64,000 nt of DNA, from the IMG/VR virus record IMGVR_UViG_3300043449_000987, positions 1 through 64,000 of that record. One strand, 5' to 3'. Source of the stretch: a virus. Position numbers and translations under genes: made by a program. Numbering within the stretch: the first letter of the stretch is position 1; each line of letters begins with the position of its first letter. A model generated the notes under the pieces. It was not told the DNA's origin, did not search any database, and saw only the letters and a program-made list of their open reading frames with translations. This document shows, one piece after another, positions 13,747 to 62,203 of this stretch.

Positions 13747-13929
13747 ATGGCCAGAGATCATTTTGCACAATATAAAAAACAAGATCCAAAAGACTATAAT
13801 ATGTTTTCAGATAATATGTGGAATGGTTTTGTATCTATTACTAAGGCTATTCCTATTATGGGAAGGTTTTTCTCTTTTACCCCCGACTACAGCAAGAATG
13901 ATAATACTATTACGAATGACGGGGAATAA
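13747..13929 (+). CDS. 60-aa leaderless protein upstream of an oxygenase
   Basis: An extended -10 (TGGTATAAT) ends six bases before the ATG. Basic/aromatic composition with 'AIPIMGRFFSF' in the middle. It overlaps the oxygenase start by one base, so the two are co-translated. Function unknown. Confidence 0.7.
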   Translation: MARDHFAQYKKQDPKDYNMFSDNMWNGFVSITKAIPIMGRFFSFTPDYSKNDNTITNDGE

Positions 13930-18649: not shown

Positions 18650-18723
18650 ACACCAGTAGCCAAGTTGGTTAAGGCCCCGAACTCATAATTCGGTTATCGT
18701 AGGTTCAAGTCCTACCTGGTGTA
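18650..18723 (+). tRNA. tRNA-Met (CAT), possibly tRNA-Ile2
   Basis: Perfect seven-base-pair acceptor ACACCAG/CTGGTGT, anticodon loop CTCATAA, T-loop TTCAAGT. The first acceptor pair is A-T and there is no initiator G-C run, so it is elongator Met or, if C34 is modified, Ile. No encoded CCA. Confidence 0.85.
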
Positions 18724-18736
18724 CAATTAAATAATT

Positions 18737-18807
18737 GCGGATGTTGCATATTGGTAGTGCCTCTGCCTTCCAAGCAGAAGGGGTGAGTTCGATTCTCATC
18801 ATCCGCT
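18737..18807 (+). tRNA. tRNA-Gly (TCC)
   Basis: Acceptor GCGGATG/CATCCGC, anticodon loop CTTCCAA, T-loop TTCGATT. Reads GGA. No encoded CCA. Confidence 0.9.
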
Positions 18808-18811
18808 CAAT

Positions 18812-18883
18812 GGCTCCATCGTCTATCGGTTAGGACTCCAGATTTTCAATCTGGCAAGACGGGTTCGACTCCCGTTGGGGCTA
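18812..18883 (+). tRNA. tRNA-Glu (TTC)
   Basis: Anticodon stem CCAGA/TCTGG with loop TTTTCAA, acceptor GGCTCCA/TGGGGCT with wobble pairs, T-loop TTCGACT. Confidence 0.85.
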
Positions 18884-18884
18884 C

Positions 18885-18955
18885 TCTCTCATGGTGTAAT
18901 GGCAGCACAGAGGCCTTTGAAGCCTTTAGTTTTAGTTCGAGTCTAGATGAGAGAA
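18885..18955 (+). tRNA. tRNA-Gln (TTG)
   Basis: Acceptor TCTCTCA/TGAGAGA, anticodon loop CTTTGAA, T-loop TTCGAGT. Only one base separates it from tRNA-Glu. Confidence 0.85.
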
Positions 18956-18958
18956 CAT

Positions 18959-19031
18959 ACCTCTGTAGTTCAGTGGACAGAACGATGGACTTCTAAGCCA
19001 TGCGTCGCAGGTTCGATTCCTGCCAGGGGTA
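18959..19031 (+). tRNA. tRNA-Arg (TCT)
   Basis: Acceptor ACCTCTG/CAGGGGT, anticodon loop CTTCTAA, T-loop TTCGATT. One A-G mismatch closes the anticodon stem. Reads AGA, rare in most actinobacteria. Confidence 0.85.
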
Positions 19032-19058
19032 CAAAAATGTTTTGGTATAATGATTAGT

Positions 19059-19814
19059 ATGACAGCACAATATCAAGATACCAGAAAAGGTACACCAAAA
19101 TTAAATGCATTATTTAAAAGCATCAATGTTCCAGTACCATATTTTTTTGAAAATGAACAGGATATTAAAACAGAAGATAATTTTACAAAGGTGTTTGGAA
19201 CTGGATTTAACAATATAAAGTATTGCGAAGACTTTCTGACCCAAGAAGAAGTTGATGAGTACATGTCATTTGTAAAAAAGTATCCAGAAATTGAGGGCAG
19301 AGAGCACTGCTATCCATTGCACCTTGCAGATCATTCTATAAATAATGATCCAGGCTACCTTGGGTTTTGTAAGCGTATGGGTACCAAGATGATTGAAAAA
19401 GCAAAACAAGAATGGCAAACGCCTATGTCAAACCTAGATAATCAGCATTGCATGGCAGTAGTGCATCCAACTGGAACATATCTTAATCCACATACAGATA
19501 TTTTAGATATTCATTACGAAAACAATGATCCAGACCATGATGATGGAATGTCATACGAAGATCAAAGAAAAACTTTTCCAAATCTTTGGAGCGGTCATCT
19601 TGCAATCCTTGCATATCCTAACGATGATTTTGAAGGCGGATACTTTTATTTCCCAGACTTTGACTATTACTTTAAACCAAAAGCAAGATCAATTCTGATG
19701 TTTCCTGGTGGATTACACTACATCCATGGGGTAACACCAATTACTAAAGGCACAAGATATACACTATCTCAATGGTGCTTATTTGATATATATAAAAATC
19801 CAGATGCTGTATAA
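19059..19814 (+). CDS. Fe(II)/2OG oxygenase
   Basis: 251 aa. Ligands H145/D147 (PHTD) and H223 (YIHG) with R233. 'ILAYPNDDFEGGYFYFP' marks the prolyl-hydroxylase-like branch. The ATG at 19059 is preferred to 19050 because TATAAT (19046-19051) overlaps the earlier ATG and lies seven bases before the later one. Directly follows the tRNA cluster but has its own promoter. Confidence 0.9.
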   Translation: MTAQYQDTRKGTPKLNALFKSINVPVPYFFENEQDIKTEDNFTKVFGTGFNNIKYCEDFLTQEEVDEYMSFVKKYPEIEGREHCYPLHLADHSINNDPGYLGFCKRMGTKMIEKAKQEWQTPMSNLDNQHCMAVVHPTGTYLNPHTDILDIHYENNDPDHDDGMSYEDQRKTFPNLWSGHLAILAYPNDDFEGGYFYFPDFDYYFKPKARSILMFPGGLHYIHGVTPITKGTRYTLSQWCLFDIYKNPDAV

Positions 19815-19838: not shown

Positions 19839-20057
19839 ATGAAAATTGGCAATTTGGTTATGATTATTGACCACGCAGAACTAGAAGGAAAAGCAGCAGA
19901 AATTGTTGCTGTTAATGAATCAAACTATACAGTTAAACTACTTAAAACTGGAGAAACTGTTGAACTATTAGAGTCAAACATGAAACGAAAAAAGTTATGT
20001 GTTTGTGGAGAATCTCAGAGTCATCCATTTTGTGATGGATCACATGCTAAAGGATAG
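19839..20057 (+). CDS. CDGSH-type iron-sulfur protein with N-terminal KOW/SH3-like part
   Basis: 72 aa. Residues 1-50 look like a small barrel (GNLVMIIDHAELEGKAAEIV). Residues 54-69 match the CDGSH signature C-x-C-x2-(S/T)-x3-P-x-C-D-G-(S/A/T)-H exactly: C54, C56, S59, P63, C65, H69. In known CDGSH proteins three Cys and one His bind a redox-active 2Fe-2S cluster. GAAAGG precedes the ATG. A role as electron carrier for neighbouring oxygenases is speculation. Confidence 0.75.
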   Translation: MKIGNLVMIIDHAELEGKAAEIVAVNESNYTVKLLKTGETVELLESNMKRKKLCVCGESQSHPFCDGSHAKG

Positions 20058-20060
20058 TCA

Positions 20061-20222
20061 ATGACTTTGGAAAAAGGCATTAAAGATATCTTATTTAAAA
20101 TTGGACAAGATGTCAAATTGCATAAAATTGATGCTGAAAATATTATTTTAGAAATAGATTATGATCAATATACTGCAGAAATTATGTCACTATTTAAAGA
20201 CTATTTAGAAAATAGGTCCTAA
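20061..20222 (+). CDS. 53-aa small protein
   Basis: ATG three bases after the CDGSH stop and TAATG overlap with the methyltransferase, so it is in the same operon. Mixed alpha/beta; no family recognised. Confidence 0.55.
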   Translation: MTLEKGIKDILFKIGQDVKLHKIDAENIILEIDYDQYTAEIMSLFKDYLENRS

Positions 20223-20917
20223 TGCCAAAAAAACCAGTTCCAGGATTACAAAACGATCAAGTTAAACCCTTTGCAGATGATGAAATAGAAGACTCTCCAA
20301 AAATATCACAACAACAACTTAATGGTGCACGATTGTATTCATCTAGAGAAGAGTATGCTAAAAGCCTCAAACAAGGCATTAGATACCTTGAGGTAGGTGT
20401 TGCATGGGGATACTCAGCAGAACTCTTTGCAGGGGCCTCTAAAGCCTCTTCTGTGACCCTTTTGGACTGGTATAACCAAGACCTTAAGTGTTGGTCATGG
20501 AGGAAATTTGGTTCTTGCCAATGTCAAGGTTTTAAGCATGAACTTTTGTATACCCCAGAAACACACGAACAATATATTAAAGATAAGTTTAGCAATTATA
20601 ATTTAACAACAGTTAAAGGTGAGGCATCTGCAATGCTTCCAACAATTAATGGTGAGTATGATTTTATTTATATTGATATTAGCAATGATAGATACATCAC
20701 TCGCAAAGTTTTAAATCTAGCACAAAGATTAATACCAGTTGGTGGGATTATTGGATTAAATGATTATTTAATATATGATGGCATTATAGAAGATCAGCCA
20801 TATGGCACATTTCAAACAGTAAATCAATTCCTTGATGAAAATAAAAATTGGGTAGTAGATGGCTTGGCATTACACAATCTAGGCTTTTATGATATCTATA
20901 TAAGGAGAGAAAACTAA
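20222..20917 (+). CDS. SAM-dependent methyltransferase-like protein
   Basis: 231 aa, paralogue of 16703-17341. Motif I 'YLEVGVAWGYSAELF' (about residues 57-71) and 'VTLLDWYN' form the SAM site, with 'FIYIDISNDRY' and 'GIIGLNDYLIY' later. A CWSWRKFGSCQCQGF insertion adds three cysteines not found in the paralogue. Operon with CDGSH and SGNH genes. Substrate unknown. Confidence 0.75.
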   Translation: MPKKPVPGLQNDQVKPFADDEIEDSPKISQQQLNGARLYSSREEYAKSLKQGIRYLEVGVAWGYSAELFAGASKASSVTLLDWYNQDLKCWSWRKFGSCQCQGFKHELLYTPETHEQYIKDKFSNYNLTTVKGEASAMLPTINGEYDFIYIDISNDRYITRKVLNLAQRLIPVGGIIGLNDYLIYDGIIEDQPYGTFQTVNQFLDENKNWVVDGLALHNLGFYDIYIRREN

Positions 20918-21924
20918 TGGCTTTTAATTTAAGAGGTGGAAAGATTGAGGCTCAGTCACAGGGATGGACAATTGATAGCAATGTTATTAAAGGTTTAGAA
21001 ATAGACAAGTTTGATCTAACATGGGCATATTCACCACCAGATGCAACACCAATCTCAGATAGAATGGATAAAGCAGATAGTCGTACACCAGTTGAAAATG
21101 GCTCACATATGAGAATTGATGAATTTTCTAAATATAACCATAGACTAATAGATGATTACCACATAGTAGACGTAGTTCCAGTTGACATAATTAGAGCAGA
21201 GTGCAAAGACTGGAAGGTAGAATATAAATATAATAGAGATTGGTTTAGATCTGATCATTTTAAAAAAGAGCACGATGGATTGCATATTGTTTTTTCTGGT
21301 TGCTCAAATACTGAGGGCATTGGTGCTGATATAGAAAATACTTGGTCTCATATGCTTTATACAGAAATATCCAAATCAGTAAAAACTTCTGGTTACTTTA
21401 ATCTTGCTAGGGCAGGTTCTGGATGGCACAGAATTATACAAAACTTTCATGCTTATGTCAATAACTATTCTGCACCAGACTACTTATTTATATTAATGCC
21501 AAACATATTGCGTAACTTTAAATGGTATTCTGGTGGTTGGCAGTATCAACAGTTTAATCCGTGGGCAGAGCCTGAAAAAAGACAAGAATATATTGATATG
21601 CATAGAAAAGAATTTCCAGTCTGGGCTTTGATGTGGAATGCTTTTCTTGATTATTGTACTGCTGTTGGCACAAAGGTTGTTTGGACAACATGGGATGAAT
21701 GGGAATTATCAAACATAGAAGCGATTGATCAATTTAAAGATACCTTCTTTACAATTGACCCACTTACTGAATCTGAAATTGCACAAAAATATTTACACCT
21801 ATTGGATAGAAAAGATGCTGCAAGAGTAAGAGATGGACATGATGGGTATATACAGCAAACACAATGGTTTGAAGGTTTTAAAGAACAAGTAAAAATAAGG
21901 GGTGTGCTAAATGAAACTAATTAA
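20917..21924 (+). CDS. SGNH/GDSL-hydrolase-like protein
   Basis: 335 aa. 'VFSGCSNTEGIG' (residues 125-136) resembles SGNH block I, 'LARAGSGWHR' may be block II/III and a C-terminal D-G-H (RDGHDGYIQQTQWF) resembles block V with the catalytic Asp-x-x-His. Such hydrolases deacylate glycans or lipids. Starts in a TAATG overlap. The assignment rests on motif order, so it is moderate. Confidence 0.6.
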   Translation: MAFNLRGGKIEAQSQGWTIDSNVIKGLEIDKFDLTWAYSPPDATPISDRMDKADSRTPVENGSHMRIDEFSKYNHRLIDDYHIVDVVPVDIIRAECKDWKVEYKYNRDWFRSDHFKKEHDGLHIVFSGCSNTEGIGADIENTWSHMLYTEISKSVKTSGYFNLARAGSGWHRIIQNFHAYVNNYSAPDYLFILMPNILRNFKWYSGGWQYQQFNPWAEPEKRQEYIDMHRKEFPVWALMWNAFLDYCTAVGTKVVWTTWDEWELSNIEAIDQFKDTFFTIDPLTESEIAQKYLHLLDRKDAARVRDGHDGYIQQTQWFEGFKEQVKIRGVLNETN

Positions 21925-21997
21925 ACAACTAATTAAAAAGTATAAAATAAGAAGAATAGTTAAAAAGATAAATAAGCCCAGAAAGTATATCTATTAA
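21911..21997 (+). CDS. 28-aa highly basic peptide
   Basis: Lys/Arg/Ile-rich peptide between the SGNH-like and RsmI-like genes, overlapping both. Coupling supports translation; it may only serve to couple the next gene. Confidence 0.35.
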   Translation: MKLIKQLIKKYKIRRIVKKINKPRKYIY

Positions 21998-22773
21998 TGC
22001 AGCCTGGAAAATTGTTTTTAGTGGGATTGCCTGTTGGCAACTGGGAAGATATGTCTGTTAGAGCATATAAATATATAAAAAATGCTAAGAATATTGTTAT
22101 TGAAAGAGAAGAAGCCTTTGAGAATATTTGGCCAGCACTTGGTATGGAAAAACCAAATGTAAACATTGTATCAATTGAGATGGATTCTAATGGCGGTGAA
22201 CCTGGAGTAGCATACGAATTAAAAAATATGCCTGTAATCATAGAGTTATTAAAGTCAGGGGAAGATGTGTACTTAATTTCAGATGATGGGATGCCTGGCG
22301 TTGCCGATCCTGGCGCACTGATTGTTAGCGAAGCAATTAAAGAAGGTATTGAGATTACCTCTACCCCTGGACCATCTGTTGCCATTGCTGCTGTTGCAGT
22401 AACTGGAACTATGCATAATTTTTCATTTGAATCCTTCCTGCCTTTTACTAAAACAGACAGAATAAAATTTTTAACTGAAAGAAAACATATGCTTTCTCCA
22501 ATGGTACTAGTATTACGAAATGTAAAAAGAAATGAAATTGATGGTTTGCCACCAGTTTTTCATGAAGAGATTCCAGATTTTTTATCTGAAGCAGTTGAAA
22601 TTTTTGGAGAACATAGACACGCTGCCCTTTGTTATAATCTTACAATGCCAACTGAAAAAATTGTTCGTGGTACATTAAGATATCTTAAAGAGTATTTTGA
22701 TATAACAGAAAGAAGTACACAAGATTTAATATCTATTATTATAGATAAGCCTCACGGCAATATGGCTATTTAG
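21997..22773 (+). CDS. RsmI-like tetrapyrrole-methylase family protein
   Basis: 258 aa. Order of motifs follows RsmI, the 16S rRNA C1402 2'-O-methyltransferase: LVGLPVGN at 8-15, SDDGMPGVADPG at 95-106, TPGPS at 123-127, FLPF at 147-150. The EDTR-type motif is altered to EREEA, and the C-terminal part is shorter or divergent. A phage enzyme of this family could modify host ribosomes or a small molecule. Coupled by TAATG. Confidence 0.8.
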   Translation: MQPGKLFLVGLPVGNWEDMSVRAYKYIKNAKNIVIEREEAFENIWPALGMEKPNVNIVSIEMDSNGGEPGVAYELKNMPVIIELLKSGEDVYLISDDGMPGVADPGALIVSEAIKEGIEITSTPGPSVAIAAVAVTGTMHNFSFESFLPFTKTDRIKFLTERKHMLSPMVLVLRNVKRNEIDGLPPVFHEEIPDFLSEAVEIFGEHRHAALCYNLTMPTEKIVRGTLRYLKEYFDITERSTQDLISIIIDKPHGNMAI

Positions 22774-22900: not shown

Positions 22901-23563
22901 TTATTCACCTAGTCTAACTATATTTCTTGTTGGCTTTGTATTTCTAAAATTAAAAAATGATTCACTAGTATCCTGTGATTTTTCTACTGGAACACAGTTA
23001 GGAACTGGTTTGCCGTCTTTACCTGGTTTCATTCCACGTTGTACATATCCATCCCAACATGGACTTGCTTTGCCAATTGATGAATCATACATTGCCATTT
23101 GAACCTCTGAATCAGATGAACTAAATTGCTCTTCAACAACATCTCTTTCAACCATAAGTGATTCAATTTTAATTAACATAGATTGTTTATGTCCAGAAAG
23201 AATCATTTCTTCTTCCCAAATGCCGTCTTCTTCTTCAAAATGTCTAACAAGAATTGCTGGATCATCTACTGATGCTTCAATTGCGTATTCAGATCCAGAC
23301 ATACCAAATGTTCCTTCTGTCATTACATATTCAACACGTCCAACCAGTGGTTCATCTTCGTATCCTTCTGGACACATCACAAAATCGCCTTCTAGTAATT
23401 TAGTCATTGATTTACCTATTTTACCTTCACTAATGTTAATTGCATATATTTGTGCTGCTGCTTCCGCTCTTGTTTTGTGGCAACCCATTACTTCTCCACC
23501 CTCTTTTACAGCAGGGTATCCTGAGCAACCGTAACTTCCTTTAGCACCGACTTTATATGGCAT
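22901..23563 (-). CDS. Phage protein with CxGYPAV and prohead-type C-terminal motifs
   Basis: 220 aa. N-terminal 'CSGYPAVKEGGEVMGCHKTR' and C-terminal 'CWDGYVQRGMKPGKDGKPVP' segments resemble short motifs found in actinophage capsid-maturation or portal-region proteins. No protease domain is obvious between them. Leaderless: TGGTATAAT, six bases, ATG. Confidence 0.6.
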   Translation of the reverse strand: MPYKVGAKGSYGCSGYPAVKEGGEVMGCHKTRAEAAAQIYAINISEGKIGKSMTKLLEGDFVMCPEGYEDEPLVGRVEYVMTEGTFGMSGSEYAIEASVDDPAILVRHFEEEDGIWEEEMILSGHKQSMLIKIESLMVERDVVEEQFSSSDSEVQMAMYDSSIGKASPCWDGYVQRGMKPGKDGKPVPNCVPVEKSQDTSESFFNFRNTKPTRNIVRLGE

Positions 23564-23570
23564 GCAATAA

Positions 23571-24173
23571 TTATACCACTATACTCAGAGCCTTTTGTCG
23601 CTTAGATACTGCGACAAGCAGGTCCTGATACATTTCTTCAATCACAGATAATATTTCTGGATCCTGAGCCTCATATTCTTCTTTAACCTTATCATAATTG
23701 GGGCTTAGTTTTGATGACTGCCTAATGCTTACTGGGGCACTTAGACCATCCTTCATTAGGTTATATTTAAAATCACGCATTTCTTTTTCGTCAGCATGTC
23801 CATAACTAAAAATCCTAGCAATCTCAAGCAAACAGGATATTGGATCTGATGATACCTGATCAAAAGTGAAAGGATACAAGTTTTTAATATTTACCAAAAC
23901 ATATTCATGCCATTCTAACCAGTTATCTATAGCATATGCCATAGTATCACCAGATTCTCCCTCAACTTCTTTTTTTAAAATTGCAAAAGATGGAATTGTG
24001 TCTTTAGGATCTCGAATGATAACAATTTGATTTGGCGTTGGCTTTTGAATCATTACAAAATCATGCATGGTGTCTGAGTTATATACCTGATTATCAACAT
24101 GCAAAAATCTGTTCAGGAAATTTAAAAGGTATCTGTTGCCAGTTCTTGGAAATGAGTTAATAAATAAAGACAT
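23571..24173 (-). CDS. Sulfotransferase-like protein
   Basis: 200 aa. 'SFPRTGNRYL' near residue 7 is the 5'-phosphosulfate-binding loop of PAPS-dependent sulfotransferases and 'IVIIRDPKDTIPSF' (residues 50-63) is the 3'-phosphate-binding motif. A sulfate would be moved from PAPS to an unknown acceptor. TATAAT lies seven bases before the ATG. A possible PAPS supply is the APS-kinase-like gene at 27610-28371. Confidence 0.8.
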   Translation of the reverse strand: MSLFINSFPRTGNRYLLNFLNRFLHVDNQVYNSDTMHDFVMIQKPTPNQIVIIRDPKDTIPSFAILKKEVEGESGDTMAYAIDNWLEWHEYVLVNIKNLYPFTFDQVSSDPISCLLEIARIFSYGHADEKEMRDFKYNLMKDGLSAPVSIRQSSKLSPNYDKVKEEYEAQDPEILSVIEEMYQDLLVAVSKRQKALSIVV

Positions 24174-28371: not shown

Positions 28372-28589
28372 GATTCTTTCCTCCAATGTAAAAATGATTT
28401 AATATATACTGCTGCATATGCTAAAGCCATTGCTATAAAACCGTATTGGTTTGTTGCCAATGCGTATCCAATCCATAAACATTCATTAATACATAGGATT
28501 AACCAGCCCCAAATGGTTTTGCGACCAACTAAAAAAATTCCTGATACACCTATTGCTGCTAAAAGCCAAGACCAATATTGTTCATTCAT
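28368..28589 (-). CDS. Small integral membrane protein
   Basis: 73 aa with three hydrophobic segments and 'WGWLILCINECLWIGYAL' in the middle, a pattern seen in PnuC-like transporters and short phage membrane proteins. Overlaps the kinase gene start (ATGA). Function not assigned. Confidence 0.7.
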   Translation of the reverse strand: MNEQYWSWLLAAIGVSGIFLVGRKTIWGWLILCINECLWIGYALATNQYGFIAMALAYAAVYIKSFLHWRKES

Positions 28590-28876
28590 TATTCATTGTC
28601 CGTTGTTAAGTATTGCCATGTTTGACCCCATTTTGTTTTGTCTTTATGCTTGTTGAATTCTCTTGAAATCTCTCCACCTTCAAGGTAAATCCCACCCCAT
28701 ACTCCCCATTCTTTTCCAGTTACACCAATTGCAAAACAGTTTTTGCTAATTGGACACTGAGAGCATAGTTCATCAATTGCTGGCCTGAGCAACTCATCTT
28801 CTTCATATTTTTCAAAGAACAAGTTTGTGTCATAATCTAGGCAGGCAGCCTCGTCTTTCCAAAGATGCTTTGCCAT
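28589..28876 (-). CDS. WhiB-family iron-sulfur transcription regulator
   Basis: 95 aa. C12, C38, C41 and C47 form the C-x(n)-C-x2-C-x5-C cluster-binding pattern, followed by the G(V/I)WGG turn (GVWGG 58-62). Wbl proteins bind a redox-sensitive 4Fe-4S cluster and the primary sigma factor; they occur only in Actinobacteria and their phages, so this is the main host indicator. It could reprogram host transcription. Confidence 0.92.
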   Translation of the reverse strand: MAKHLWKDEAACLDYDTNLFFEKYEEDELLRPAIDELCSQCPISKNCFAIGVTGKEWGVWGGIYLEGGEISREFNKHKDKTKWGQTWQYLTTDNE

Positions 28877-33831: not shown

Positions 33832-35265
33832 TTAACGTATAATTGTAAAGTTATATGTTTTTTCCCACTCTACAATGTCATTTTCGTCATTTAGCAGTGG
33901 CTGCCCTTTAATATTTAAACTGGTATTCAATAGGACTGGAACTCCAGTTTCTAAATAGAACTTATTTAATACCCTCCATAAGCCACGATGTTGATCTCTA
34001 TTGACTGTCTGTACTCTTGATGTGCCATCAGCATGGACGACAGATGGAATTTTATCTGGCTGCAAACATTTAACCGTGTATTGCATATATGGTGAAGCAA
34101 AGTTCATGTCAAACCACTTTGATGCATGCTCCTCCATGACTACTGGAGCAAATGGCCTAAACAATTCTCTCTTTTTAATTAGATTTACTTTATCCTTAAT
34201 GTTTGGATCTCTTGGATCTGCTAAAATACTTCTATTGCCCAATGCTCTTGGACCATATTCTGCCCTACCTGTTGCTACTGCTACCACTTTATCTTTGTTA
34301 ATTCCTTCAATGATTTTGTCTACTGGGTATTCTCCACCAAGGTCGTATCCAAGATATGGGGTTTCCCATTTTATATGTTGACCATAAAGTGCTGCTGCTG
34401 CCCCTAAAGAACTTCCAGCGTCTCCAGGATTTGGCATAATCCATACATCTTTAAATAATTTCCAGAGCATTGTGTTTGCAGATGAGTTTAATGCACATCC
34501 ACCCATAAACACTAGATTTCTTTTTCCTGTTAGTGTTTTTGCTGAGTTCATAAATTCTGCCAAACGCAGTTCATAGACAAACTGTACTGCAGCAGCAATA
34601 TCAAAACGTGATTGTTCATCTAGGACTTCATCCCAGTCATGAATACCTCTATGAAAGTTATATTTTTGTTTAGTTATATTTGGAAAATAATCATTTACTT
34701 TTCTATAGTATCTATCTTTATCTCCATATGCAGCCATACCCATCATAATATATTCTTCTTGGTTTGGCATAAGACCAATTAGTTGTGTGAAAGCAGAATA
34801 AAACAGTCCGAAACTAAACGGATAGTTTTGTTTTTGAATAAGTTTAATATTATTATCTACGCCTGTCCAAATTGTTGAAGTATTAAATTCACCTATGGCA
34901 TCAAGAACAACAATAACTGCGTTATCAAACGGGCTTGTATAGTACCCTGCTGCTGCATGAGAATAATGATGTCCAAAGTTTGTTCTTGGAATGCGATCTA
35001 AATCTGTACTTTCAAACCATGGCCTATCACCACCAAAACCACCCCTTGTTTTTACTCTTAACCTTTTTAATAATGGTTTTTCGTAATAAGCAATTTTATC
35101 TGGAGTGCCGTACTGTAATGCATCTTTAATTAATTCGTGATTAGTAAACCAGTCATTCTTTTCTTTGCTATATCTTTCAGCATGTCCAGCAAAAAGAATT
35201 CGACCATTCTCAATTAACGATACGGACGCATCGTGTGTTGTTTCGTTAATTCCGAGTATTCTCAT
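33832..35265 (-). CDS. Carbamoyltransferase, NodU/CmcH/TobZ family
   Basis: 477 aa. N-terminal Kae1/YrdC-like ASKHA domain: 'ILGINETTHDASVSLIENG', the metal-binding HHYSHA motif, 'GGCALNS' and 'GAAAALYG'. C-terminal domain: 'GRAEYGPRALGNRSILADPR' and 'FRPFAPVV'. The family transfers a carbamoyl group from carbamoyl phosphate to sugar or antibiotic hydroxyls. It ends about 90-100 residues before the usual length, so the C-terminus is shortened. Related enzymes occur in cyanophages. Confidence 0.9.
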   Translation of the reverse strand: MRILGINETTHDASVSLIENGRILFAGHAERYSKEKNDWFTNHELIKDALQYGTPDKIAYYEKPLLKRLRVKTRGGFGGDRPWFESTDLDRIPRTNFGHHYSHAAAGYYTSPFDNAVIVVLDAIGEFNTSTIWTGVDNNIKLIQKQNYPFSFGLFYSAFTQLIGLMPNQEEYIMMGMAAYGDKDRYYRKVNDYFPNITKQKYNFHRGIHDWDEVLDEQSRFDIAAAVQFVYELRLAEFMNSAKTLTGKRNLVFMGGCALNSSANTMLWKLFKDVWIMPNPGDAGSSLGAAAALYGQHIKWETPYLGYDLGGEYPVDKIIEGINKDKVVAVATGRAEYGPRALGNRSILADPRDPNIKDKVNLIKKRELFRPFAPVVMEEHASKWFDMNFASPYMQYTVKCLQPDKIPSVVHADGTSRVQTVNRDQHRGLWRVLNKFYLETGVPVLLNTSLNIKGQPLLNDENDIVEWEKTYNFTIIR

Positions 35266-35268
35266 TGC

Positions 35269-35931
35269 TTACTCTTCGCCCGTTGAATTTCTCATATCTT
35301 GTAATGGAATATTGTGATACCAGTTTGGCAAAGCATATCTTGGTCCCTTTGTAACTGGAGCAACTTCATGCACATATAAAAAGTTTGATGGGAAAAACAA
35401 TACGCTTCCTGGTTCTGGCTTTAAGGTAATGTTTGATTGTCTAAAAGTAATTTCTCCACCCTCATAATCATCATTGAGGTATAGCAATACAGATAAAACA
35501 CGACTACTAACACCCTGATCTTGATGTGCTGGCAAATATCCAGCCTTATCATATCGAAGAAGATGCATGGTGTGTTCTCTTGATTTAATATTATTTTCCG
35601 CAAAAGGATACAATTCTTTAGTGTAGTGACTTAATGTTAGGTCTAATGCACCAAACAATTCAGAAGAAATAAACCGTTGCTCATTATAGTAGATATCATG
35701 GTTACTTATATGTTTTACCTGTGGAATAAACTTTTGTAAGCAGAACAATTCTTTATTTCCGCTTTCATTTTTCCACTCAATCCATGGCTTTACACTTGTT
35801 TGCCATTCTGCTGGCTTATCTAGTTGATATCTATCTTCTAAATCTTCAATAGCCTTAATTAATTTATCTGGTTCTTGAACAATATTTTTATAATAAACAA
35901 GTCCCAGATCTAATATTTCATAATTAATCAC
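35269..35931 (-). CDS. Fe(II)/2OG oxygenase, prolyl-hydroxylase-like
   Basis: 220 aa. H136/D138 (AHQD), H188 (YVHEV) and R198; 'VLLYLNDDYEGGEITF' strand pair. Adjacent to a second oxygenase and to carbamoyltransferase and glycosyltransferase genes, so a shared pathway is plausible. Confidence 0.92.
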   Translation of the reverse strand: MINYEILDLGLVYYKNIVQEPDKLIKAIEDLEDRYQLDKPAEWQTSVKPWIEWKNESGNKELFCLQKFIPQVKHISNHDIYYNEQRFISSELFGALDLTLSHYTKELYPFAENNIKSREHTMHLLRYDKAGYLPAHQDQGVSSRVLSVLLYLNDDYEGGEITFRQSNITLKPEPGSVLFFPSNFLYVHEVAPVTKGPRYALPNWYHNIPLQDMRNSTGEE

Positions 35932-39610: not shown

Positions 39611-41071
39611 CTACTTCCTTTCTACCTTAATAACATCTCCAAAGGCACCAGCCTCTATAACAGTTATCTTAATATTATTATATACTATATAGTCATTTAG
39701 TTTTAGCACTGAGTTTGATCCCTCAAATAGTGTGCTTCTTGTAGACCTATTTGATGGATTAAGCAACATCATTCCATCATTGTGGTCTGTTACAGTTTCG
39801 TCAATTAAATAAACTAAGGCGCCATGTGCTTCTTTCCCTAGTTTAAAGTTAAACCCATATGGCCTAATTGATTCAATACCAATTGCTTTATTATTGCCTA
39901 GCGGTATCATAACAAGTTTAGTCTTACTTGATTTAACTGTTGACGGAACAACCCAACTAACCGATGTTGATGTTGGCGATTGACACTTAATTTGATCATT
40001 TGCATAAAATCCAAGTAACCATTTGTGCCAACCAAGCAAATCAGTCGTTGATCTCCCCATAATACCCCAATGCCCCATCGTTTGTGTTGGACCATCTGCT
40101 GTATCTGCAAGACCTAACCCAGTATGCCACATCTCATGTAGCCACCATGCTGGGTGTTTTAAACCATAAAACATGTATCTTTTATTCTCAAAATTTGGAG
40201 CAGCCATAGCATCAACAATAATATTTCCTTCATTAGTATTAACTCTATCAAGACCTGACTGCTCAAATATTGACTCAGGTGTTCCAGAAGGTACTAAGAC
40301 AAGCGCCATATTAGCGCCAGCAAAATTAATAGAATTATCTACCTGAGAAATTAAAGCAGAAAGAAAGGTTGCTGCCTGCTCATTTGTTCTTAGGTGAGTT
40401 ACATTATAATTTGACAATTTACCATTAAACTTAATATAGTTATCTGGAACCCTAAACTCTACGCTTGATGGCACATCTGAGTTATATTCAAGATATTTTT
40501 TAACATAGTTAAAATATGCTGAGTAATCTTGCACAGGTGTATTGCCAGTTAATGGGGCATCTTCAGAGTAGATTGGAATAATTTGAAAAACTGTTTTTGG
40601 TGATGGATGTCTACTAGCAAAAAACCAATTGTCAGATCCGAAACCATTTGTACCTAGGTGTGATCTACTATCTTGAATCATGCAACTATCTATAGGCATT
40701 AAGGCATCACTAGTGATTGTTGTTGGTGTTTCAGAGACTAAAGATGATTCAACAATGCGATATGGACTACTGCATCCACCCAAACTTCTATACCAAGAAT
40801 CAAATGCAAGCCACTCTTTTGGAGTTAATGGATCGACGTCGCATACACCAATTTCTGGTTTAGAAATTTCAGTCTTGGGAACTTCTTGAGTTTTGGTTGT
40901 AGCAGGCTTTGGTAATTCTGTCCATCTATAAACATATCCTATTTTTTTACAAATTAACCCATTTTTAATTTTATCTACTTGTTTATATGAACAAACCTTG
41001 GTTGTTGCTGCTTCTGCTGAAAATGTTGGAAATACTAGCGCTAAACTAATTAATACAACAAGTTTCTTCAT
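39611..41071 (-). CDS. Secreted HExxH metalloprotease-like protein
   Basis: 486 aa. Signal peptide MKKLVVLISLALVFPTFSAEA with an Ala-x-Ala cleavage site. Around residue 313 'HEMWHTGLGLAD' gives HExxHxxGxxD with an Asp third ligand, and 'GHWGIMGR' supplies a Met-turn, as in M6-like or metzincin-related proteases. A Thr/Pro-rich linker follows the first ~55 residues. Likely exported; possible roles are attack on surface proteins or virion release. Confidence 0.75.
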   Translation of the reverse strand: MKKLVVLISLALVFPTFSAEAATTKVCSYKQVDKIKNGLICKKIGYVYRWTELPKPATTKTQEVPKTEISKPEIGVCDVDPLTPKEWLAFDSWYRSLGGCSSPYRIVESSLVSETPTTITSDALMPIDSCMIQDSRSHLGTNGFGSDNWFFASRHPSPKTVFQIIPIYSEDAPLTGNTPVQDYSAYFNYVKKYLEYNSDVPSSVEFRVPDNYIKFNGKLSNYNVTHLRTNEQAATFLSALISQVDNSINFAGANMALVLVPSGTPESIFEQSGLDRVNTNEGNIIVDAMAAPNFENKRYMFYGLKHPAWWLHEMWHTGLGLADTADGPTQTMGHWGIMGRSTTDLLGWHKWLLGFYANDQIKCQSPTSTSVSWVVPSTVKSSKTKLVMIPLGNNKAIGIESIRPYGFNFKLGKEAHGALVYLIDETVTDHNDGMMLLNPSNRSTRSTLFEGSNSVLKLNDYIVYNNIKITVIEAGAFGDVIKVERK

Positions 41072-61623: not shown

Positions 61624-61763
61624 AGTCCCTCTTGTGAGTCTTGCGGTGGATGAAAGAATCTTCTTGATCCACAATAAAGGCAATATGCCTCAAGATGATC
61701 TGGTTTTGTATATTGCCGATCAACAAACATTCTTCGTGTACATTTTAAACAATTTATTGTCAA
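61569..61763 (-). CDS. 64-aa zinc-finger protein
   Basis: TTG start. 'CLKCTRRM' and 'YCLYCGSRR' give a four-cysteine zinc unit. Overlaps both neighbours; the first gene of the replication operon after the tail genes. Confidence 0.55.
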   Translation of the reverse strand: MTINCLKCTRRMFVDRQYTKPDHLEAYCLYCGSRRFFHPPQDSQEGLWLLKKEQQRAKATISNL

Positions 61764-62203
61764 TTAGGTATTCCAATTACGATTATGTTAACTGCTACAG
61801 AAAGATCTCCAGTAGAATTAAATCTTACAACTCCTTCAACTTTTGAAGTAGTAACAGTTTTTAAAATAACAGAAACATTTTTACCTGCGTCTGTACCACC
61901 AACGTTAATAGGTGTAACTGTTGCAATTGGGGCATACTTAAAATCTGTTGGAAAGTCATAAGAGAAAGACACTTCATTGCCAGCACTCTTAGTTGCACTA
62001 TTTACTACATCAATATATCCGCCAAGAATTCTGGCTTCAGATGCCTTAACACTTTGCTTTCCTGTATTTGGCGTATCAATAGTAACATATTTATAGTTTG
62101 ATGGTGAAACTTGCGACGCAAGGTCATTTAAAGCCTTTGCTAGTTGAGAAATATAGGACACATCTAGGGGTTGTCCTCTGTCGGGTAGTGGTACTTTAGC
62201 CAT
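61760..62203 (-). CDS. Tail or virion protein, leaderless
   Basis: 147 aa. 'PLPDRGQPLDVSYISQLAKALND' is a common start for phage tail/fibre accessory proteins; the rest is beta-rich. TGGTATAAT, six bases, ATG. Confidence 0.65.
   Translation of the reverse strand: MAKVPLPDRGQPLDVSYISQLAKALNDLASQVSPSNYKYVTIDTPNTGKQSVKASEARILGGYIDVVNSATKSAGNEVSFSYDFPTDFKYAPIATVTPINVGGTDAGKNVSVILKTVTTSKVEGVVRFNSTGDLSVAVNIIVIGIPN

Follow-up and report, generated by a model that had tools for sequence, protein, structure and literature searches.

The 16S rRNA (cytidine1402-2′-O)-methyltransferase RsmI is conserved almost throughout the bacteria and requires the assembled 30S subunit (PMC5053481). In EcRsmI, D100 is required for AdoMet binding, with F144 contributing, and a docking model places the conserved Arg174 in contact with the phosphate of C1402 (PMC5053481). 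Here we analyzed a relative of this enzyme encoded in a stretch of viral DNA of 64,000 nucleotides (positions 1 to 64,000 of IMG/VR record IMGVR_UViG_3300043449_000987; hereafter, the window). In all likelihood, the viral protein is a methyltransferase related to RsmI whose substrate side has changed. As a whole, the data are best explained, with moderate confidence, by a phage-only clade that would have been derived from RsmI and had its acceptor retargeted away from C1402, likely to a component of the operon in which the gene resides.

The methyltransferase is encoded by a genuine open reading frame with an ATG start (Table 1), present as a single copy in the whole virus record (100,367 bases). 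The motifs on which the original prediction was built, namely, LVGLPVGN, SDDGMPGVADPG, TPGPS, and FLPF, are all found in the RsmI order. The protein matches the Pfam family TP_methylase (PF00590) with E = 1.1e-25, and a profile search against the PDB returned RsmI (5hw4) as the top match (E = 1.3e-21). The NCBIfam RsmI model TIGR00096 is also matched (E = 4e-17), although the score of 62.5 bits is far under the equivalog cut-off of 167.9 bits, whereas an Arthrobacter RsmI scores 190.2 bits against the same library. No PHROGs family was found for the methyltransferase. Judging from sequence and predicted fold, the product is a class III (TP_methylase/COG0313) SAM methyltransferase, the nearest solved relatives of which are RsmI proteins.

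The check by structure prediction led to the same family. The deeper of two models, built from a 58-row alignment (pLDDT 91, pTM 0.85), superimposes on RsmI from 9pzg, its complex with the small ribosomal subunit, with Z 25.9 and 1.9 Å over 225 residues, a score that is biased upwards because 31 of the rows were RsmI sequences, which pulled the model towards RsmI. Next in the ranking were the 1wyz protein (Z 18.6) and corrin methylases (Z ≤ 17.6). With phage rows only, RsmI still ranked first (Z 16.4), the two domains of that model being mis-oriented (rmsd ~14 Å). A corrin or porphyrin methylase (CobA, CbiF, and others) or a diphthine synthase would share the PF00590 fold family, and weak matches to the Dph5 and Cbi models were recorded; however, these do not exceed 20 bits against cut-offs of at least 92 (20 versus 114.3 for dph5; at most 16 for the corrin models), corrin methylases fall well behind RsmI in the fold ranking, and a long branch separates the phage clade in the tree described below. 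Furthermore, the sampled Planktophila and Aquiluna genomes contain one TP_methylase each, which is their own RsmI. On model scores, fold ranking, and tree together, we reject such an identity, which we consider extremely improbable.

For phylogenetic analysis, the window protein and 26 further distinct sequences from scans of viral contigs (n = 27) were placed in one tree with corrin-type methylases and 32 RsmIs of cellular origin. The viral sequences all fall into a single clade (99* support) adjoining cellular RsmI and outside every host lineage, with a stem of ~1.3 changes per column and a poorly resolved base of RsmI; the pattern is retained when divergent paralogs are included. An AU test of the phage clade plus CobA against RsmI gave p 0.56, and placement of the phage clade as sister to RsmI yields the identical split. 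Grouping with corrin or porphyrin methylases did not occur in the tree or the fold ranking, and the proposed relatedness to RsmI stands. Given that the window carries a gene for a WhiB-family regulator, we infer an actinobacterial host (via PMC10611076). Recent gain from such a host was rejected, as the phage clade is not joined to actinobacterial RsmI in the trees. The best cellular RsmI matches reach 36% identity, and a limited peptide-pattern scan detected no close relatives in cellular genomes. Matches obtained by tblastn in the phage collection (at most ~32% identical) were rejected as isolate-phage members: judged by identity and not by tree, they resemble the RsmI of bacteria and come from gut-contig or unannotated records. 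The SGNH-like neighbor, the micropeptide (see below), and the window DNA were all not found in isolate phages.

Within the viral set, ten further orthologs of the window type are 52–71% identical to the window protein, and some related phages carry a second paralog type (B, ~36% identical). Related phage records encode up to three paralogs, with three copies in four records, which suggests diversified substrates. Divergent second or third RsmI-like paralogs were observed in L012 (4377-5138, minus strand), L211, L212, L213, L214, L215, L216, and L217, and the DPG motif is absent from some of the most divergent ones.

Comparison of the 27 viral sequences with 80 cellular RsmIs showed that the AdoMet motifs SD-G-MP, DPG, and PGPS are kept in all viral sequences. 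D104 and F147, equivalent by alignment to D100 and F144 of EcRsmI, are invariant in the viral alignment. RsmI residue A124, the mutation of which to leucine (A124L) abolishes AdoMet binding, corresponds to V128 in most viral members, and cofactor affinity may therefore also differ. The substrate side presents a different picture. EDTR (EDSR allowed) is present in 80 of 80 cellular RsmIs and in none of the viral proteins, the window protein displaying EREEAF, which bears out the original prediction of an altered EDTR-type motif. Similarly, ELTK of the RELTK motif is found in 78 of the cellular sequences versus none of the viral ones, and ES-PHR in 69 versus none, the latter stretch adjoining a variable insertion where the alignment register is uncertain. 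The column of Arg174 (by count, the R of ESTHR) holds mainly E or D in the phage proteins, with the register again uncertain next to that insertion. Basic columns conserved in RsmI are replaced in the viral proteins (R39 by E/D/N, R191 by E/D, R213 by Y/I, and K217 by T/M), and over the matched region net charge averages −8.9 in viral proteins versus −2.8 in RsmI. Relative to RsmI, the phage enzyme carries ~9 extra residues near residue 65 and a second insertion, of variable length, near 176–188. Since defining RsmI features were absent in this direct test, the enzyme is filed as RsmI-related and not as RsmI, and the loss of hallmark substrate-side residues makes an acceptor other than C1402 probable. 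Of the phage-encoded RsmI-like methyltransferase proposed originally, the RsmI ancestry and fold hold, whereas the role at C1402 is not supported, given the replaced EDTR, ES-PHR, and RELTK and the lost basic residues. Automatic annotation would label this protein RsmI and suggest ribosome tuning, a reading against which the motif evidence warns.

A protein that binds AdoMet or the ribosome without methylating, either as a decoy or inhibitor of host RsmI or as a heterodimer subunit with a paralog, would be compatible with the homodimeric state of RsmI (PMC5053481), with the two or three paralogs in some phages, and with the disappearance, at columns 213 and 217, of basic residues that RsmI conserves. 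Nevertheless, conservation of AdoMet-site residues across 27 diverged sequences argues for retained cofactor use, and the window's own record has a single copy, so this option appears very unlikely.

The original prediction further held that the gene lies beside leaderless genes, and promoter analysis agrees: an exact TATAAT ends 6 nt before an ATG nine times in the window, whereas other gaps average 1.8 occurrences (Poisson p ~1e-4, not corrected for the gaps examined). In the 2OG oxygenase gene, the motif also precedes an in-frame ATG at 19059 by 7 nt (leaderless type). Leaderless-type expression is thus likely in this phage. Of ten near relatives, eight have TATAAT or TATACT at the 6-nt spacing before the methyltransferase gene itself; the window copy has no leaderless-type promoter and is coupled to the upstream open reading frame. 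Extended −10 boxes (TGGTATAAT) lie ~6 nt before starts, for example, at 13747, 19050, 22901-23563 (−), 23571-24173 (−), and 61760-62203 (−), the layout expected for leaderless transcripts.

These promoters, together with RsmI being the best match in sequence searches and the close superposition on ribosome-bound RsmI, could be taken to indicate a functional RsmI that would 2′-O-methylate C1402 and tune start-codon selection to suit leaderless phage mRNAs. However, the superposition comes from the model with RsmI rows in its alignment, EDTR, ES-PHR, and ELTK are missing throughout the viral set, the TIGR00096 score is well short of its cut-off, phage records carry up to three divergent paralogs, and freshwater actinobacterial genomes possibly resembling the host, Planktophila and Aquiluna among those sampled, already have an ordinary RsmI. 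A functional RsmI is accordingly improbable in our view, and the same body of evidence lends no support to either the methylation of C1402 or the tuning of start-codon fidelity that had been put forward, with the leaderless promoters showing no link to such tuning.

The methyltransferase is the last gene of a tight operon, in which several stop codons overlap the following start (Table 1). Homologs in relatives sit among the same gene families as in the window, and in several of them a carbamoyltransferase homolog lies directly 3′ of the methyltransferase. The SGNH-like protein has no Pfam match, and the 3′ end of its gene overlaps the start of a micropeptide, the TAA of which in turn overlaps the methyltransferase ATG (TAATG); a Shine-Dalgarno-like GGGG is located upstream of the micropeptide at 21899-21902. 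2OG-Fe(II) oxygenase-like genes were observed in this one phage genome at 14960, 19050, and 25142 (Pfam-checked) and at 35269, 35924, 50664, 51454, and 52093 (by eye), adjoining methyltransferase, sulfotransferase-like, and carbamoyltransferase genes.

Table 1. Coordinates of the methyltransferase gene, its operon, and other features in the window
Feature	Coordinates	Strand	Remarks
tRNA cluster (n = 5: Met, Gly, Glu, Gln, Arg)	18650-19032	+	just 5′ of the operon
2OG-Fe(II) oxygenase	19050..19814	+	Pfam; likely first operon gene
CDGSH iron-sulfur (zf-CDGSH) protein	19839..20057	+	
53-aa ORF	20061..20222	+	overlaps next gene
Methyltransf_24 class I methyltransferase	20222..20917	+	overlaps next gene
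SGNH-hydrolase-like protein	20917..21924	+	motif reading alone: GCSNTEG ... DGH
Conserved basic micropeptide MKLIKQLIKKYKIRRIVKKINKPRKYIY	21911..21997	+	28 aa, net +12
RsmI-like class III SAM-dependent methyltransferase	21997..22773	+	258 aa; Pfam, TIGR00096, PDB profile search, tree, fold model
WhiB-family regulator	28589..28876	-	
Carbamoyltransferase	33832..35265	-	
Secreted-looking protein	39611-41071	-	486 aa; HEMWH zinc-protease-like motif (by eye)

What is new here is the conserved micropeptide directly before the methyltransferase. Members of this family are 26–31 aa long, carry a net charge of ~+10, and end in KPRKYIY or a variant thereof (aromatic-Ile/Val-Tyr). Besides the window, 21 of 22 related records yielded a member, all but L022, a 34.6-kb fragment; a few of these matches have weak E-values and were assigned by position and the common ending. 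Pairs allowing both estimates nearly all have dN well below dS, and in eight phages only the micropeptide frame is free of stops, its amino-acid identity being higher (0.51 versus 0.33); the micropeptide is under purifying selection. It has no match in Pfam or PHROGs, and a PDB search yielded solely a chance-level match of 11 residues to ribosomal protein L25 (E 0.22). In nine phages, the micropeptide is directly 5′ of the methyltransferase (window, L155, L156, L157/L166, L158, L159, L163, L169, and L222); elsewhere, it is found 3′ of the SGNH-like gene with no methyltransferase next to it, or alone. Its association with the upstream SGNH-like gene is stricter than that with the methyltransferase, and in several phages another gene follows. 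The micropeptide was additionally observed in L009, L013, L012, L014, L017, and L021. What connects it with the methyltransferase is position alone.

Under the preferred reading of a retargeted enzyme, AdoMet would sit, as it does in RsmI, in the interdomain cleft, and the methyl group would be passed to some acceptor that is not C1402 of 16S helix 44. This acceptor would most likely be part of the tailoring operon, which comprises the 2OG oxygenase, the CDGSH protein, Methyltransf_24, the SGNH-like protein, and the basic micropeptide, the co-translated micropeptide being the first candidate, as substrate or binding partner. That the acceptor is something other than RNA is, in our judgment, evenly poised. 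Because RsmI needs the assembled 30S subunit, the phage enzyme could nevertheless act on the ribosome via different contacts or a basic helper peptide. RNA methylation, of rRNA or another RNA, at a site or through contacts unlike those of RsmI, for instance guided by the micropeptide, might then retune host translation during infection. Descent is consistent with this possibility, the nearest relatives being RsmI, as are the strong positive charge of the micropeptide and the overlap of its gene with the enzyme gene in the window's subclade; a precedent is a 16S rRNA methyltransferase of phage origin, the rRNA specificity of which depends on a second protein (PMC10810198). On the other hand, basic residues that RsmI conserves have disappeared, the acidity of the matched region has increased, and the micropeptide does not adjoin the methyltransferase in other phages of the group, so that we entertain RNA methylation only as a tentative alternative to retargeting within the operon. 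One specific version of the latter, which we regard as rather unlikely, is a peptide-modification system in which the RsmI-derived methyltransferase, the 2OG oxygenase, and other tailoring enzymes would modify the co-translated cationic micropeptide of 26–31 aa, which would then act on the host. Such a system would be neither RsmI nor borosin.

Several described systems invite comparison. The borosin α-N-methyltransferases (SonM/SonA, OphMA) share the class III fold (Z ~16), and split borosins pair the methyltransferase with a separate precursor peptide. Borosin identity was nevertheless rejected: the catalytic pattern Y58/R67/Y71 of SonM is absent from all viral sequences with both strict and relaxed spacing, and the neighboring peptide (28 aa in the window) is too small for the five-helix borosin binding domain. 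The prophage enzyme M.EcoPA8orf6770P is likewise a phage-encoded methyltransferase, directed to 16S rRNA by its partner protein, but it is a predicted DNA adenine methyltransferase of another enzyme family (PMC10810198). The only other viral protein with the fold found in BFVD, A0A6J5P470 (“COG0313 predicted methyltransferases” of an uncultured Caudovirales phage), is 19% identical to the phage enzyme. The Bacteroidetes “putative SAM methyltransferase” of the 1wyz type has the same fold (Z 18.6), and its relative in L182 has an NIT loop instead of ELTK, resembling the NLT of the phage proteins; however, this type is cellular and less similar in sequence and fold than RsmI, and the L182 protein retains ED-x-R and ETPYR, both of which are absent from the phage family. 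With RsmI itself (PDB 5hw4, 9pzg, 3kwp), the phage enzyme shares the fold and domain order, the AdoMet motifs GN-xx-D, SD-G-MP-xxx-DPG, PGPS, and FLP, and the invariant Asp (D100) and Phe (F144), whereas it is only 24–34% identical, far below the equivalog cut-off, lacks EDTR, ES-PHR, and ELTK, contains two insertions, is acidic, and belongs to a phage clade of its own. A viral clade that keeps the cofactor site, replaces the substrate side, and occurs in as many as three copies per phage would illustrate how an rRNA enzyme with a housekeeping role, such as RsmI, can be retargeted.
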